DNA of 60,803 nt. It comes from Terriglobia bacterium (GTDB lineage Bacteria > Acidobacteriota > Terriglobia > Acidiferrales > UBA7541). The first letter of the stretch is position 1. Every line of letters starts with the position of its first letter. The notes beneath the pieces were generated by a model that made no database searches, was not told the DNA's origin, and saw only the letters and a list, made by a program, of their open reading frames with translations. The stretch spans positions 1 to 60,803 of the forward strand of contig JAIQES010000024.1 of assembly GCA_020073705.1 (NCBI GenBank). The letters are read 5' to 3'. Made by a program: the position numbers and the translations under genes. Shown here one piece after another: positions 51,857 to 59,250 of this stretch.

Positions 51857-52234
51857 ATGATAATTGGCATCGGAATAGATCACGTGGAAATCGCAAAGTT
51901 CAGGACGGATGTAGAAGTCGATGAACTTGGTTTCGTTGGGCGAATTTTCACTGAGTCCGAAGTTACCTATGCCCGGAGCACGGACGATTATCTTCAGCGC
52001 CTAGCGGGTCGTTTTGCGGCGAAAGAGGCGACTTTGAAAGCTCTTGGCACGGGATGGACCGCCGAGATAGATTGGAAGCAAATTGAAATCAGCAATGATC
52101 CCTTCGGGAAGCCGAGGATTATATTGAGAGGCCAGGCAGCGGAGTTAGCGACCGCAGCAGGCGCAAAGCAATTCTTTGTGTCCATTAGCCACTCGCCGCA
52201 TTTAGCAACGGCTGAGGTCATCATTGAGGCCTGA
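51857..52234 (+). CDS. acpS: Holo-ACP synthase AcpS-type phosphopantetheinyl transferase
   Basis: This 125-residue protein has the AcpS motifs GIGIDHVEIAKFR (metal-binding D8) and RFAAKEATLKALGTG (catalytic Glu/Lys). The final VSISHSPHLATAEVI is the family C-terminus. It adds 4'-phosphopantetheine to a carrier protein. An isolated AcpS in an accessory region next to a base-modification gene may serve a dedicated acyl carrier, but no carrier gene is visible, and it could be the housekeeping copy. The next small gene starts 3 bases after its stop. Confidence 0.92.
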   Translation: MIIGIGIDHVEIAKFRTDVEVDELGFVGRIFTESEVTYARSTDDYLQRLAGRFAAKEATLKALGTGWTAEIDWKQIEISNDPFGKPRIILRGQAAELATAAGAKQFFVSISHSPHLATAEVIIEA

Positions 52235-52237
52235 GAA

Positions 52238-52519
52238 GTGACTGTCCATACCTCATGCTCGCCTGACCGCATGATTGTGATCGAGAAAGCGGCCTGGAGA
52301 GTTGCAAAATCTACGGTCGTGTTCTTGATCGATAGAAGCAAGCCATTCCGCCTCGAACCTCCCAAATTCTGGGTCAAATACGGGGACGCCCACCGGCAGT
52401 TGTTCTATGCAGAAAGGACACAGTACTCATCCGAGACGATTGCCAATAAAGATTCCATCAAGCAGACTCTTAAGCAATTGATTCAGTCCTGGCAGAAGAG
52501 GTGTGAAGCTACAATTTAG
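52238..52519 (+). CDS. Small protein of unknown function
   Basis: This 93-residue protein contains PPKFWVKYGDAHRQLFYAE and a Lys/Gln-rich C-terminal helix. No family recognised. GTG start, 3 bases after the acpS stop and 14 bases before the next gene, so it is probably in the same transcript. Confidence 0.5.
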   Translation: MTVHTSCSPDRMIVIEKAAWRVAKSTVVFLIDRSKPFRLEPPKFWVKYGDAHRQLFYAERTQYSSETIANKDSIKQTLKQLIQSWQKRCEATI

Positions 52520-52533
52520 GAGGAACCCTGGTC

Positions 52534-53565
52534 TTGACGACGAGCAGCCGAACCGGCGCGGTTCTGTGTTTCCCACGGCGTGAGCCAATGACGACTGAAG
52601 TATTTGACTGTTACTGGCGGTTCGCAGCGGAGCGACAAGCCATTTTCTTCCGTCGGTTTGGTGGTCAGGCAAGACCTTGGACAAACGACGAGATACTGTC
52701 TACATTCCGCTTTACGAATGCTTACAGAGCATCCGATCGTGTTAGCCAGTACTTGATCCGCCATGTAGTCTACGGCGGCGACCAATCCCCCGAAGACGTA
52801 GTCTTTCGGATCATCCTCTTCAAGCTCTTCAACAAGATTGAGACCTGGCAGCTATTGAGCTCGCATGTTGGTCCGATAAATTACTCGACGTATCGCTCTA
52901 AAAGCTACGATCAGATTCTGACCGAAGCGATGTCTGCCGGGACTCGGATTTATTCATCGGCTTACATTATGCCAAATGGTGGGCGGAATTATTTGCGGAA
53001 GCACCGGGCTCACTTGTGGTTACTAGAGAGAATGATGCGCGACGAAATGCCGAAGAAGCTAGCCGGCTGCCCGTCTATGAAGCACGCATTCGAGCTCCTG
53101 CGTGGCTACCCCATGATTGGAGACTTTCTGGCCTATCAGTACGTGACGGACCTGAACTACAGTGAGGTAACAAACTTCAATGAAATGGACTTCGTGGTGC
53201 CTGGGCCTGGAGCGCGGAGTGGTATTCACAAGTGTTTTTCCGATCTAGGCGACTGGCCTGAGGACGATGTTCTTCGCTGGGTAACCGAGAATCAAGAAGT
53301 GCAGTTCTCCAAACAACAGTTGGAGTTTAGATCGTTGTGGGGAAGGCCGCTTCAGCTGATTGACTGCCAGAATCTGTTCTGCGAGATCGATAAGTATGCC
53401 CGGGCGCGGTTTCCCAGAATATCGGGTCGATTACAGCGGACGCGGATCAAACGAAAATTCGAACCTAACCCAGCGGCGATCGATTACTGGTATCCCCCTA
53501 AGTGGGGTATTAACGCGAACATTGGTAAGGATCCGATTTTAGCGCGGGCTGCTGCTTCGGGCTAG
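52534..53565 (+). CDS. Predicted DNA base hypermodification protein (HMUDK-helical / aGPT-pyrophosphorylase type)
   Basis: This 343-residue protein begins with CYWRFAAERQAIFFRRFGGQ and FTNAYRASDRVSQYLIRHV. It contains the HhH-like loop GYPMIGDFLAYQYVTDLNYS and PGPGARSGIHKC near 225-240. This combination is the pattern I know from the 5-hmdU DNA kinase helical domain / alpha-glutamyl-putrescinyl thymine pyrophosphorylase group, enzymes of phage thymidine hypermodification. No P-loop kinase motif is visible, so it is more like the pyrophosphorylase/glycosylase-type member. It follows a small gene and acpS, and converges on a MazG-like gene. The exact reaction is unproven. Confidence 0.72.
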   Translation: MTTSSRTGAVLCFPRREPMTTEVFDCYWRFAAERQAIFFRRFGGQARPWTNDEILSTFRFTNAYRASDRVSQYLIRHVVYGGDQSPEDVVFRIILFKLFNKIETWQLLSSHVGPINYSTYRSKSYDQILTEAMSAGTRIYSSAYIMPNGGRNYLRKHRAHLWLLERMMRDEMPKKLAGCPSMKHAFELLRGYPMIGDFLAYQYVTDLNYSEVTNFNEMDFVVPGPGARSGIHKCFSDLGDWPEDDVLRWVTENQEVQFSKQQLEFRSLWGRPLQLIDCQNLFCEIDKYARARFPRISGRLQRTRIKRKFEPNPAAIDYWYPPKWGINANIGKDPILARAAASG

Positions 53566-53616
53566 GGCGGAGATCGTATCGAATCAAATCAATGCCACTC
53601 GTATCATTCCACACGC

Positions 53617-54804
53617 TCAAGTCATCTTGAACGAGAGTGTATGGGTGTTGAGATCTGCGATTACGACCCCGCGACGGTGTTCCTGCAGAGGACGAAACAC
53701 TTCGTAACCTTTGAGTATCGCCTCCTCCCATTGCCACAGAGGAATTCGTTCCACTTCGTAGTCGGCCACGAGCTCCTTGATGGCTTTCAGGAGAGAATAG
53801 TCAAGACTTGAAATTGACGCGAAATAGTTCAATCGACAGGCGTGATTGAAAACCCAAGTAGCCACGGCCTCTTCGATCAAAATAGCTCGAGCGCCGTCCT
53901 GGGTTTCATCGATGAGCGGTTTGCTCTTTCGCTTAACCCTGAATAGTGCCCGAATAACAGGCGACCACCCCAAAATAGCGGCGTATCCAAGGTGGAATAC
54001 ATCGTGAAAACGATAGTCATCCTGTTCGATTTTGTTGTCCGTTAAGTGATCGCCTATATTGATTCCTTGACATTGCAGTCGGACGTACGTTTTCTTGCCC
54101 GAGGTTCGCTCCATGATATCGATCTCGATGTGCCGAGGGAGTTGTTCTTCCGTGTCCTCAGTCTCGTCGAACAAGGGAGCGTATTCGCGAATGGTCGGCG
54201 CCCAGCGTCCCGAAGTCTTCTCAAGATTCTTCCGGGCGCAGTCTGAGAGGCTAATGCCAGCGTCGTTTGCTGCGCGGATCAATGCGCGGAAAACTTCCAC
54301 CAAATGCGCAGAGAGGGCGTCACGATTCCCATCGATGCGACCCGAGGCGACGTCATCTAGCAGCCTGCCGACCTTCCCCGCAAGTCCGATTAGCCCAGCT
54401 TCTACTGTGTCATCTACGAGCGGACCTGAGAATTCGACTCCCGCCTGCAGTTCCTCAAAGGAGATAGAGCCGTTCGGTGTAGGCTTGTCCCAGTCTCCCA
54501 ATGTGCGGAGTGCTCGCTGGCCGATTGCAGACAGTTTCAAGACGGCCCGGGATGCAACATTGGCGAAATACCAAAGTGCGTCACCGAATTCTTCAGTGAT
54601 GGATGCACGATAGGCGAAGTAGGAGTCCTGATCTCGCTGCTTCTTTTTAAGCTCACTCAGCACACTGCCGACTTCTCCGAAGAGACCCAATAGCGCGAAG
54701 TGAATCCCGGCCGTGCCCTGCTTTGGATTTCGGGCGGTCAACGCGGCCTGAGTTTGATATTGGTCTAAATGCAATGGCAGCGATTCTGAAGCGGCTGCGT
54801 CCAT
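53617..54804 (-). CDS. MazG-like NTP pyrophosphohydrolase with long C-terminal domain
   Basis: This 395-residue protein has an N-terminal MazG-like all-alpha module: HFALLGLFGEVGSVLSELKK (Glu pair for Mg) and EEFGDALWYFANVASRAVL (ExxD). The second half has an unusual conserved-looking domain, YRFHDVFHLGYAAILGWSP and ILIEEAVATWVFNH, perhaps a nucleotide- or metal-binding domain. MazG proteins hydrolyse dNTPs, and in T-hypermodifying phages they remove dTTP. On the minus strand it lies 17 bases after the thymidylate-synthase-like fragment, so the two were one transcript. Function of the C-terminal half is unknown. Confidence 0.78.
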   Translation of the reverse strand: MDAAASESLPLHLDQYQTQAALTARNPKQGTAGIHFALLGLFGEVGSVLSELKKKQRDQDSYFAYRASITEEFGDALWYFANVASRAVLKLSAIGQRALRTLGDWDKPTPNGSISFEELQAGVEFSGPLVDDTVEAGLIGLAGKVGRLLDDVASGRIDGNRDALSAHLVEVFRALIRAANDAGISLSDCARKNLEKTSGRWAPTIREYAPLFDETEDTEEQLPRHIEIDIMERTSGKKTYVRLQCQGINIGDHLTDNKIEQDDYRFHDVFHLGYAAILGWSPVIRALFRVKRKSKPLIDETQDGARAILIEEAVATWVFNHACRLNYFASISSLDYSLLKAIKELVADYEVERIPLWQWEEAILKGYEVFRPLQEHRRGVVIADLNTHTLSFKMT

Positions 54805-54821
54805 TTTTCGCCTTGGCCTGA

Positions 54822-55121
54822 TCAGGCTGCTTTGTTTTCGGCGACATTATGGCAGTTCTTAACGAGTTTTTCGATATCAGACTTACCCCATTCGCCGGTC
54901 TCACGTTCGAGCGTTGCATAGGTCGAGTGGCAGATGAGAGGTCCAATATTCAACCTGGTCTCGTTCGCGACAAAACCTTGAAGCTGGGCAAGCCCAAGGA
55001 GATTGCCGAGTGTCTTCTGCACGTAGTAGTGCGAGCGGTAGAGTGCAGTGAGCATAAGCGAGTTGTCACTCCTGATTCTGAAGCTGAGATGACTCAGACA
55101 CGGTTGGCTCAGTGTCCGTGT
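54822..55121 (-). pseudogene. 3' part of a thymidylate-synthase-like gene, truncated
   Basis: The frame, read upstream from the stop at 54822, gives LSQPCLSHLSFRI, then ALYRSHYYVQKTLGNLLGLA and LNIGPLICHSTYATLE. PCL, with the catalytic-type cysteine, and YRSH...LGN are thymidylate synthase / dUMP hydroxymethyltransferase motifs. The 5' part (substrate-binding N-terminus) is missing. An ATG at 55055 gives only 77 residues and would lack the cysteine. The sequence changes abruptly into an RHS gene at about 55120-55150. It was probably functional together with the MazG-like gene before truncation. Confidence 0.6.
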
Positions 55122-55148
55122 GGAATCAGATGCCGCGGCTACAGCTTC

Positions 55149-56714
55149 CTGACGAGCCGCAACTTCACGAACGCATACACGTACGACGCTGCATCGAACC
55201 GCACGGGGTTCACCGATCCTGAGAGCGGCTCGACCACCTACTCCTACGACACGCTGAATCGCCTGACAACTCTTGCTCCGCCGTCGGCATTCACCACAGG
55301 CTCATTCGGCTTCAGCTATGACGCGCTGAGCCGCCGCACGCAGATGACGCGCCCAAACAGCATCGCGACCAACTACACCTACGACAATCTGTCGCGGCTG
55401 CTGACCGTGCTGCACCAGGCAGGCGGAAGTACCATTGACGGGGCGAGCTATACGGTGGATTCTACTGGGAACCGGACGGCGAAGACGGACCAGTTGGCGG
55501 CAGTCACGTCGAATTACACGTATGACGCGATCTATCAACTCCTGAGCGCCACACAAGGAGGAAGTACGTCCGAGAGTTACACCTACGACCCGGTAGGCAA
55601 CCGCACGGCGTCGCTGGGCGTGTCGTCGTACACCACCAACGCATCGAACGAACTGACGGCGACATCAAACGCGAGCTACACCTACGACAGCAACGGCAAT
55701 ACGCTGACCAAGACGGTCGGCTCGGACACGACGAGCTACACCTGGGACTTCGAGAACCGCCTGACGAGCGTGACGTTGCCCGGGAGCGGCGGGACGGTCA
55801 GCTTCAAGTACGATCCGTTTGGCAGAAGGATATACAAGTCACCATCGGGCGGAACGAGCATCTTCGCTTACGATGGTGCGAGCCTAGTCGAGGAGACGAA
55901 CGGAGCGGGCGCCGTAGCCGCACGGTATGCGCAGGGAGCCAGTATTGATGAGCCACTGGCCATGCTCCGCAGTTCGTCAACCAGCTATTACAATGCCGAT
56001 GGATTGGGCTCCGTCACATCACTGGCCAATGCCACAGGAACGCTGGTGCAGACGTACACGTTCGACTCCTTCGGTAAGCTGACCGCTTCGGCAGGCTCGC
56101 TGACAAATCCATTCCAGTACACGGGCCGCGAATCCGATCCTGAAACCGGCCTCTATTCTTACCGCGCCAGATATTACGACACTTCGATTGGACGGTTTTT
56201 AAGTGAGGATCCGACGCAACTCCGGGGAGGTATCAATTTTTATGCGTATGTCAAGAATGGACCCGTTGACTTTGTCGATCCATGGGGCCTGCAATGCAAA
56301 CAGGTGACTCCTTGGCACGCAATACCGCGCTGGAGTAATCCGAACGGTCGTAAGCCTTACACTACTATTGAAGATGGTTTCTTTTTTAACTTTCAAGGTT
56401 GGGATTTCATGAATTCATTGCTTATAGACTGCGATTGCACGTGGGCTTCAACACATACTCGCATTCGAAAATTTTACCGCGAAGATATTAAGGAAGAGGC
56501 ATGGTTTGAATGTCCGACATGCAATGGACAGACGCAGCGAGAATACCGAACGAGAGACAAGATACGAGTGCGTGAAGAAGACAGTGCGGGACAACAATTT
56601 ATGCCTCCCGTTATCAAGCACACCCCAGGGAAACTCGTGCAGATAGGCCCCGACGGGGGCACAGACCCGAATAGAACCAACGTGAATTGCCTGTGCTCAC
56701 CACCAACTCCGTGA
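55149..56714 (+). CDS. RHS-repeat protein with variable C-terminus, 5'-truncated
   Basis: About 521 residues of Rhs/YD repeats (TYDAASNRTG, YTYDAIYQLL, YTYDSNGNTLTK) end in the RHS core FQYTGRESDPETGLYSYRAR, YYDTSIGRFLSEDP. A 135-residue unique tail with CPTCNG and cysteine pairs follows, typical of a polymorphic toxin domain. The start was not found: the frame is open back to an ATG at 54849, but that stretch is antisense to the thymidylate-synthase-like fragment. So the gene is a 5'-truncated end that joins at about 55130. The lipoprotein gene after it may be immunity. The tail matches nothing I know. Confidence 0.72.
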   Translation: MTSRNFTNAYTYDAASNRTGFTDPESGSTTYSYDTLNRLTTLAPPSAFTTGSFGFSYDALSRRTQMTRPNSIATNYTYDNLSRLLTVLHQAGGSTIDGASYTVDSTGNRTAKTDQLAAVTSNYTYDAIYQLLSATQGGSTSESYTYDPVGNRTASLGVSSYTTNASNELTATSNASYTYDSNGNTLTKTVGSDTTSYTWDFENRLTSVTLPGSGGTVSFKYDPFGRRIYKSPSGGTSIFAYDGASLVEETNGAGAVAARYAQGASIDEPLAMLRSSSTSYYNADGLGSVTSLANATGTLVQTYTFDSFGKLTASAGSLTNPFQYTGRESDPETGLYSYRARYYDTSIGRFLSEDPTQLRGGINFYAYVKNGPVDFVDPWGLQCKQVTPWHAIPRWSNPNGRKPYTTIEDGFFFNFQGWDFMNSLLIDCDCTWASTHTRIRKFYREDIKEEAWFECPTCNGQTQREYRTRDKIRVREEDSAGQQFMPPVIKHTPGKLVQIGPDGGTDPNRTNVNCLCSPPTP

Positions 56715-56733
56715 GCATCGATAGGGGTAATAA

Positions 56734-57369
56734 ATGAAAGCTCGCTTATTACTTATAGTGGGAATTCTTTGGGTGCAGCCCATGCTCTCATGTAGCCATC
56801 AATCTAATCCGTCGGATCTACACAGTTCGACTGCCAACGGCGAGTCGCAACACAAGGTTGTGCAAGTCGATTTACATGCAGAATTGGATCGGATCCAAAA
56901 AGATCTGAAGAGCAATCCGCAATCGGCACCTCTCCATAATCAGGCAGCTAATGTCTATGATTCGTTAGGTGACTTTCAGAGTTTTGAGCGCGAAATTCAA
57001 ACCGCAATGACGCTCGATCCGGAGAATCCCATACACCCCTACATAGCATATGCTGTATATAAACGACGGCACGCAACCGAGAAACAGACTGCAGTTCTCG
57101 ACATGGCGCTGAAGATCGACCCAGCAAATCCATTCGGCCATTACGAACGAGCGAGCATTTTTGAAGACAAGAAACAATGGCGGGATGCCTTGAGAGAATA
57201 CGGAGTTGCACAAGAGCTAATACAACACCTGAAGGCCGACGCTCGCAATCTTAACAGCGACCGTTTGATGTATGTAGATACCCGCGGGAACCCGTTTGAC
57301 GTAACGTTCCAAGAAATGCATATCGCGGATGACATCGCGCGCGTGCGCGGGGTACAAGGCCGAAACTGA
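56734..57369 (+). CDS. TPR-type lipoprotein, possible RHS-partner
   Basis: This 211-residue protein has a lipobox signal (LLLIVGILWVQPMLSCSHQ, Cys about 20) and at least three tetratricopeptide-like repeats (SAPLHNQAANVYDSLGDFQS, DPENPIHPYIAYAVYKRRHA, DPANPFGHYERASIFEDKKQ). It starts 20 bases after the RHS stop, so it is likely co-transcribed. An immunity or a structural role for it is possible; neither is shown. Confidence 0.75.
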   Translation: MKARLLLIVGILWVQPMLSCSHQSNPSDLHSSTANGESQHKVVQVDLHAELDRIQKDLKSNPQSAPLHNQAANVYDSLGDFQSFEREIQTAMTLDPENPIHPYIAYAVYKRRHATEKQTAVLDMALKIDPANPFGHYERASIFEDKKQWRDALREYGVAQELIQHLKADARNLNSDRLMYVDTRGNPFDVTFQEMHIADDIARVRGVQGRN

Positions 57370-58351: not shown

Positions 58352-59131
58352 TCACGCCGTTCCCAGAATCCACCCCTCAATCTCAGCGGTCTTGCGCTCA
58401 TGCGGTTCAAGCTCAGGGCAGAGGAACTTTTCGAGACTGCCATCACAGCCCGCCCGTCGCAGCCATTCGGCTGTCGCATATGCGTCTTGCTGGTCAGGCG
58501 TTCGTCCTGCAGTCGGGAAAGATCTGCTCCAAAGCGCAGGGTAGACCTCCGCGACCACGGAGCAGTTGGGCGGTACGCACCACCCGTCGAACGGCCAGAA
58601 GTGAACGTGCCGCTTAACATTCCGTCGGATGTAACGCAGCCACGGGATGCCTGCGTGCGTAGATTTCGCCACTGCCCCTTGCACGTCGAAATGGAAGACC
58701 GACTTGGCTCGCACGCGCACTTCCGTTAGCCGCCGCCAGCGTGGGTTGCCGGAGCGGGCTGCACCTTTTCCAATGCTGCCGTCCCGAACGAAATCGACGT
58801 AGATGTCCTCGTCGGTCGGCCAATGGCGCTGGAAGTCGTCAAGGAACAACGGCCAGTCATGAGGCAATCCATACTGCCCGAAATACCGCAGCGGGAATGA
58901 TAACCCGTGGTCGATCCCGACAAGCGTGGGCTTTCCATCGGAAAGCTTCTCAACCAGCCACTCAGCAATGGCCCTGCGAGTCCAATACTTACGCGGGCTT
59001 GGTGGCGGCTCAACTTCCTGAGGGATGATCAAACGGTCGGCCTCGTAAACGCGCAAGCCCTTAAGGCTAGATGTGGGCGTCTGTGCGCCCGAGTAGTCAA
59101 TGCCGACATAGCATTCGAATGCGGGGTTCAT
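58352..59131 (-). CDS. DUF429-like predicted nuclease
   Basis: This 259-residue protein begins CYVGIDYSGAQTPTSSLKG (RNase H-like first strand, DYSGA) and contains LVGIDHGLSFPLRYF and a Trp/Arg-rich core. It ends with TPDQQDAYATAEWLRRA and CPELEPHERKTAEIEGWI, as in DUF429-type RNase H-fold proteins. ATG 59131 overlaps the stop of a 40-residue frame (ATGA). The longer frame from 59179 is not favoured. The role is unknown. Confidence 0.75.
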   Translation of the reverse strand: MNPAFECYVGIDYSGAQTPTSSLKGLRVYEADRLIIPQEVEPPPSPRKYWTRRAIAEWLVEKLSDGKPTLVGIDHGLSFPLRYFGQYGLPHDWPLFLDDFQRHWPTDEDIYVDFVRDGSIGKGAARSGNPRWRRLTEVRVRAKSVFHFDVQGAVAKSTHAGIPWLRYIRRNVKRHVHFWPFDGWCVPPNCSVVAEVYPALWSRSFPTAGRTPDQQDAYATAEWLRRAGCDGSLEKFLCPELEPHERKTAEIEGWILGTA

Positions 59132-59250
59132 GCTAGACCGCCCACGGGCCGGAAGCGTTTCCTGATGAACTTGCGCCACTCCAACTTCTGCGTCTTATTG
59201 CAGTCAGAAATTGGCCCGGCAAGATAGATGGTGAGTCGCTGACGGTCCAT
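59128..59250 (-). CDS. 40-residue stub with nucleoside deoxyribosyltransferase-like N-terminus
   Basis: The frame has GGGAGG 7 bases before its ATG and encodes MDRQRLTIYLAGPISDCNKT plus 20 residues, then a TGA overlapping the next ATG. IYLAGPI-x-C is the N-terminal motif of nucleoside 2-deoxyribosyltransferases (usually about 150 residues). So it is truncated or a reduced leader. It may be a leader for the DUF429-like gene by coupling, or a remnant. Confidence 0.45.
   Translation of the reverse strand: MDRQRLTIYLAGPISDCNKTQKLEWRKFIRKRFRPVGGLA

Follow-up and report, generated by a model that had tools for sequence, protein, structure and literature searches.

Decayed remains of a cassette widespread in bacteria, with a probable role in anti-phage defence through modified pyrimidines, in a Terriglobia genome

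Which system do the genes at 52534-55121 of this DNA belong to, and what is left of it in the analysed stretch of 60,803 nucleotides (the window)? The sequence-only reading had seen there the remains of a chromosomal thymidine-hypermodification cassette made of three genes, i.e., a thymidylate synthase (TS)-like fragment, a MazG-like gene and a gene with HMUDK_hel motifs. The three genes are real, and «remains» is a proper word for them, since the TS-like gene and a kinase gene are truncated. The cassette is nevertheless larger than three genes: a holo-ACP synthase gene (AcpS, 51857-52234) and a kinase remnant (52238-52519) must be added. The window probably carries what is left of a cassette common among bacteria, which arrived by horizontal transfer and has since decayed in part; when intact, this cassette would act in anti-phage defence through modified pyrimidines. 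Thymidine hypermodification in DNA by this cassette is what we infer from its genes, and the literature, within the accessible text of PMC13092281, points to anti-phage defence.

Relatives were sought in 84,980 genomes of bacteria and archaea (one genome per species), which gave 534 candidate stretches; the best 80 of these 534 were compared, and all the counts given below over 80 refer to them. These counts are lower bounds, many loci being cut by contig ends. The shared operon was defined by clustering and by profile searches of the neighbourhoods. Only 10 stretches were found in 2.9 million viral contigs. The location on a non-phage chromosome, initially held to be unusual, is thus not so, given 534 stretches in these genomes and domains validated or predicted in anti-phage defence according to the accessible part of PMC13092281.

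The gene at 52534-53565(+) codes for an intact HMUDK_hel protein, predicted to be a base-flipping transferase or a DNA-base-binding domain. PF18723 (HMUDK_hel) is its sole Pfam match and is covered from position 1 to 280 out of 281 (E 3.6e-112, 374.8 bits vs. a cut-off of 25). Homology starts near residue 20, thus ATG 52588 is the probable start. The alignment of 55 sequences has 47 invariant columns. The AF2 model (pLDDT 91.5) has as top structural match 8z2n, the 5-PmdU glycinyltransferase (PUGT, gp46) of phage PaMx11 (VIA: Z 11.4, 224 residues, 3.8 A), followed by the DUF2419 queuosine enzymes (queuosine-nucleotide hydrolase, Z 10.5) and, with Z 7-9 by VIA and a weak ranking by Foldseek (E 0.7 or worse), by HhH DNA glycosylases; these are matches of middling strength, and helical models can score so high by chance. 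It must be noted that 8z2n surfaced only by VIA (Foldseek ranking weak, E 0.7) and that identity over the aligned residues is 7%, the likeness being observed in the fold. This match gains weight since it belongs to the very pathway that the Pfam family name refers to. The predicted fold is therefore not an unrelated one, the result that would have spoken against the initial reading. A PDB sequence search gave only chance matches with annexin and aquaporin. HMUDK_hel by itself might do no more than bind DNA.

The next gene, 53617-54804(-), codes for a MazG domain with intact acidic motifs (GEVGSVLSE...EEFGD), a degenerate second MazG-like stretch and MazG_C. The C-terminal domain, taken for a new one in the sequence-only reading, is the known Pfam domain PF18722 MazG_C (residues 209-393, E 5e-81). 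PF03819 MazG is just below the cut-off (E 7.5e-4, 20.2 vs. 22), and PHROG 229 (MazG-like) matches with 6e-41. The family profile matches the protein in two stretches, residues 12-101 and 137-393. The window protein has thus a tandem look (N-terminal MazG, degenerate second copy, then MazG_C), while most relatives (about 295 aa) have a single MazG stretch.

The TS-like pyrimidine hydroxymethylase is represented by its C-terminal third only (54822-55127, minus strand). TIGR03283 thymidylate synthase (NCBIfam) matches 54822-55055(-) over 46 residues (E 2e-5). With the intact TS-like protein of L032 as query, homology extends over 54843-55127, i.e., residues 186-283 of 299 aa (51% identity, E 6e-26). 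The Pro-Cys motif, invariant across the sequences of the TS-like family, is kept. From the preceding stop at about 55304 down to ATG 55055, the frame contains no ATG, GTG or TTG; the stretch bearing Pro-Cys can thus be read through but lacks a start codon ahead of it. The same L032 query found neither another TS-like copy nor the missing part elsewhere in the genome (3.79 Mb, 97% complete). A complete hydroxymethylase of the TS family is present in 72/80 relatives (best 80 of 534). The model of an intact relative has the thymidylate synthase fold (Foldseek E 2e-9), and the best PDB profile match of the family is the CMP 5-hydroxymethylase MilA (5b6d, E 0.0025); fold and Pro-Cys motif are common to the family, MilA and thymidylate synthases, the window copy differing by its truncation. 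The sequences nearest the window piece come from a sub-branch whose loci also have a papain-like protease gene (51% for L032, 53% for L111). Loss of TS is not confined to the window, since the TS-like gene of Rhizobium ruizarguesonis pRlX4 (L111:3681-4515) is likewise split into two open frames.

The break is marked by a truncated RHS/YD-repeat gene lying outside the cassette (55128-56714, plus strand; RHS_repeat 2e-21, Rhs_assc_core 1.2e-24). This gene, devoid of its front part, starts where TS homology stops and is head-to-head with the TS fragment (window 55128-57369); its open frame is called from 54849 and is antisense to TS until about 55127. A DNA match of 70% identity, at C15:75300-76008, was found for 56655-57365, a stretch taken up mostly by the TPR-like gene following RHS.

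AcpS (51857-52234, plus strand, 125 aa) is intact and matches TIGR00516 holo-ACP synthase (7e-26, 90.9 bits vs. a cut-off of 59.8). The genome has another, vertically inherited AcpS in a housekeeping setting (C8:8579-8950). It shares 81-84% identity with AcpS of those genus-mates that give a full-length match, and 39% with the window AcpS. The latter is therefore an imported second copy; a housekeeping role for it was ruled out on the same grounds. AcpS was found in 31/80 relatives and in 19/43 loci with wide flanks, when 1-2 AcpS genes per genome of several Mb would fall inside a 17 kb stretch in ~1% of cases or less (own estimate); at least two AcpS were counted by hand in 17/22 genomes with a cassette AcpS. 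Far from being a bystander, the gene at 51857-52234 belongs to the cassette, in line with the early suggestion that AcpS may feed an acyl group.

Between AcpS and HMUDK_hel, in a separate frame, 52238-52519(+) retains only the C-terminal half of a thymidylate-kinase-like domain, matching positions 128-209 of a profile of 221 (E 2.9e-13). The missing half is that of the P-loop, which is present in every complete kinase-like relative. In 35/80 relatives (best 80 of 534), HMUDK_hel has such a domain, either fused to it or as its companion. The P-loop kinase domain with Walker A expected of a 5-hmdU DNA kinase is thus found in the intact relatives and is lacking in the window.

The intact operon of the relatives comprises ACP, HTH, ImmA, TS-like gene, HMUDK (with or without the kinase), then either MazG_C with AcpS or a canonical ThyA. 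Among the best 80 of 534, the neighbourhoods contain an Xre-type HTH and an ImmA/IrrE peptidase (69/80 each), ACP (64/80), MazG_C (53/80), dCTP deaminase (26/80), canonical ThyA (20/80), TIR (12/80) and Nmad2 (11/80). The serine motif of ACP is aligned in 37/38 sequences. Consequently the early remark that no carrier gene is seen holds for the window and not for the relatives. Conjugative plasmids carry the same gene order in records annotated independently, whose names read acyl carrier protein, HTH, ImmA/IrrE, thymidylate synthase, nucleotide kinase domain, NTP pyrophosphohydrolase and acpS. The association of HMUDK_hel with intact TS-like and MazG_C genes, on which the sequence-only reading depended, is thus retrieved in the homologue neighbourhoods.

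MazG_C and canonical ThyA are almost mutually exclusive (ThyA in 2/53 MazG_C loci vs. 18/27 others; Fisher p 2e-9), ThyA is always found with the kinase (20/20; p 9e-10) and AcpS accompanies MazG_C (29/31; p 3e-5), these p-values overstating independence since the loci are kin. The window copy is of the MazG_C/AcpS subtype, with a kinase remnant. In L114, an intact member of the protease sub-branch and of the same class, HMUDK_hel and MazG_C are likewise adjacent and convergent. Cassettes without kinase and cassettes without TS both exist, thus no single step of the pathway is universal. Carriers of an intact cassette include Allocoleopsis franciscana PCC 7113 (plasmid copy) and, for the ThyA/Nmad2 type, Acidobacteriaceae ZG23-2.

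Several variants were observed. (i) In a third subtype, a radical SAM gene replaces MazG_C/ThyA after HMUDK (L013, L023, L026, L049, L057, L061, L089). (ii) In L032, L033, L034, L039, L090, L111 and L114, ImmA and the TS-like gene are separated by a papain-like cysteine protease gene, and the ImmA protein of L032 additionally bears a chagasin-type protease inhibitor domain. (iii) Nmad2 and a ThsB-type TIR are paired beside HMUDK cassettes in L010, L019, L028, L051, L053, L056, L059, L063, L066, L071, L074 and L113. Among the best 80 of 534, TIR (Pfam ThsB_TIR) was found in 11/11 Nmad2 loci, which suggests a TIR-Nmad2 module; these Thoeris-type TIR and Nmad2 genes, present in some relatives, are absent from the window. 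(iv) In another genome of the phylum (L007/L008, G384:C411), a frame change divides the HMUDK gene where the contig ends.

The cassette is patchy, occurring in 1/95 genomes of the order and 7/396 of the phylum. Its G+C content is 0.50-0.53 vs. 0.56 for the surroundings, and the comparison within the genus showed no flanking genes shared in place with genus-mates. A prophage origin was rejected, phage homologues being at most 32% identical among the matches listed vs. 54-65% for chromosomal ones. In the window, tblastn with the families found no remnant of ACP or ImmA and no HTH near the cassette, the only weak HTH match being 11 kb away; the ACP, HTH and ImmA genes which adjoin the TS-like gene in the ACP-TS-HMUDK-MazG_C cassette are thus lacking. 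HMUDK_hel, MazG_C and AcpS of the window are open frames with their conserved residues kept. With TS, kinase, ACP and regulators broken or gone, the full pathway should not run in the window, and the cassette is most likely decaying.

Two other explanations of this state were considered. The HMUDK_hel and MazG_C pair could be a minimal system, pared down yet functional: the two genes are intact and convergently oriented, and the same pair occurs without TS or ACP in L019, L028, L056 and Rhodococcus pRHL1 (L113). These four loci, however, also have Nmad2 and TIR genes, which are absent from the window, and an AcpS without ACP next to two leftover gene halves looks like recent loss, so that a minimal system appears unlikely. 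Truncations arising from the assembly (78 contigs) are more improbable still. An RHS gene, often repetitive, does lie exactly at the TS break; on the other hand, the missing part of TS is nowhere else in a 97% complete assembly and the kinase break is not at any repeat found. Misassembly through the RHS repeat is improbable from the assembled sequence, the genome having no second near-identical RHS stretch. Decay of an acquired cassette is thus the reading kept here.

In its intact form, the cassette consists of an Xre-HTH and ImmA/IrrE regulator pair, an ACP with a dedicated AcpS, a TS-fold hydroxymethylase, HMUDK_hel, an optional thymidylate-kinase-like domain, and MazG-MazG_C or a canonical ThyA. 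The following working may be proposed: (i) the TS-like enzyme, judging from its fold and catalytic Cys, would produce a 5-hydroxymethyl pyrimidine nucleotide, probably 5-hm-dUMP; (ii) MazG would trim competing dNTPs while the kinase, or possibly MazG_C, would phosphorylate, the motifs of these proteins being present and their substrates presumed; (iii) the HMUDK_hel protein, by its fold, would act on a 5-substituted uracil in DNA; (iv) AcpS, genetically linked to ACP, would activate it, and a thioester-bound acyl or aminoacyl group would be presented for modification; (v) by analogy with domain precedents and given the defence neighbours, HTH/ImmA would switch the cassette on during infection, leading to anti-phage defence.

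In phages, 5-hmdU is made, phosphorylated in DNA by the 5-hmdU DNA kinase and further modified by alkylamine transferases (PMC6449724). The relatives resemble this pathway (Pseudomonas M6, Salmonella ViI, Delftia phi W-14; 5-hmdU DNA kinase and aGPT-type transferases) by their hydroxymethylase-type TS, their kinase with HMUDK_hel and a transferase-like fold. They differ in that chromosomal cassettes add ACP/AcpS, HTH/ImmA and MazG_C and are without phage replication genes, and the best phage HMUDK homologues are at most 32% identical among the matches listed. The accessible text of the DefensePredictor study (2026; PMC13092281) lists 5-hydroxymethyluracil kinase, thymidylate synthase and NMAD among newly validated anti-phage defence domains and puts forward aGPT-Pplase, MazG and MazG-C among the predicted ones, i.e., the same domain set; in some relatives (e.g., L010, L053, L071), HMUDK and kinase occur together with ThyA, Nmad2 and TIR. 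That text names neither ACP nor AcpS, and the likeness is seen at the level of domains. Among the 25 families listed by PADLOC for the flanks of the relatives are Hachiman HamA/HamB, type IIG RM, AbiEii and ThsB, all absent among the 25 families listed for hand-placed control regions of the same genomes. The four window proteins scanned with the PADLOC-DB 2.0 models matched no family at E <= 1.

Taken with the DefensePredictor domains, these flanks favour defence by modified-pyrimidine chemistry, with ACP carrying the added group, and the cassette is, on this analysis, most likely an anti-virus system. A more precise version may be put forward tentatively: in an immune system of this kind, ACP, loaded by its own AcpS, could transfer the group it holds as a thioester to 5-hydroxymethyl-pyrimidines of DNA. 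Such a carrier-protein-dependent base modification would be a chemistry without description in the literature searched.

The same genes could instead hypermodify the host DNA itself, for self-marking as in phages M6 and ViI, with the ACP-delivered group placed on 5-hmU of the own chromosome. The enzyme classes are those of the phage pathway (PMC6449724), the HMUDK_hel fold is nearest a DNA base glycinyltransferase and the TS is of the hydroxymethylase type. But a sparse and mobile distribution, plasmid copies and HTH/ImmA regulators better fit an inducible system, defence genes lie in the flanks, and the conserved families of the cassette include no phage-type DNA polymerase; self-marking is held to be a minor possibility. 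There is still less to expect from an action on the nucleotide pool only, in which TS-like enzyme, kinase, MazG and dCTP deaminase would make or destroy modified nucleotides poisoning phage replication and HMUDK_hel would work on free nucleotides. The dCTP deaminase (26/80) and MazG (53/80) genes of the best 80 of 534 are in line with it, as is the DUF2419 queuosine-nucleotide hydrolase as second structural match (Z 10.5), yet the best structural match and most others act on bases in DNA, and ACP/AcpS would be left without a role.

For the defence reading, the enzyme set is thus already known and filed under defence; as far as the literature could be searched, the dedicated ACP and AcpS are an apparently new part. 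No mention of the ACP/AcpS link was found in the searchable literature, which did not extend to key earlier bioinformatic surveys. If the linkage means so, bacteria join carrier-protein chemistry (polyketide/peptide-style) to thymidine modification. If true, this would give a testable substrate, i.e., the group on ACP, for the predicted 5-hmdU/MazG_C defence systems, and possibly a new route of DNA modification. The mobile cassette spans Acidobacteriota, Cyanobacteria, Planctomycetota, Chloroflexi, Proteobacteria and others; the window copy, being broken, draws attention to the system but is ill suited to its study.

Downstream of the cassette, 58352-59179(-) codes for a protein without convincing Pfam match, with one partial match of 74% in a genus-mate; it is reminiscent of the DUF429 (RNase H-like) group.
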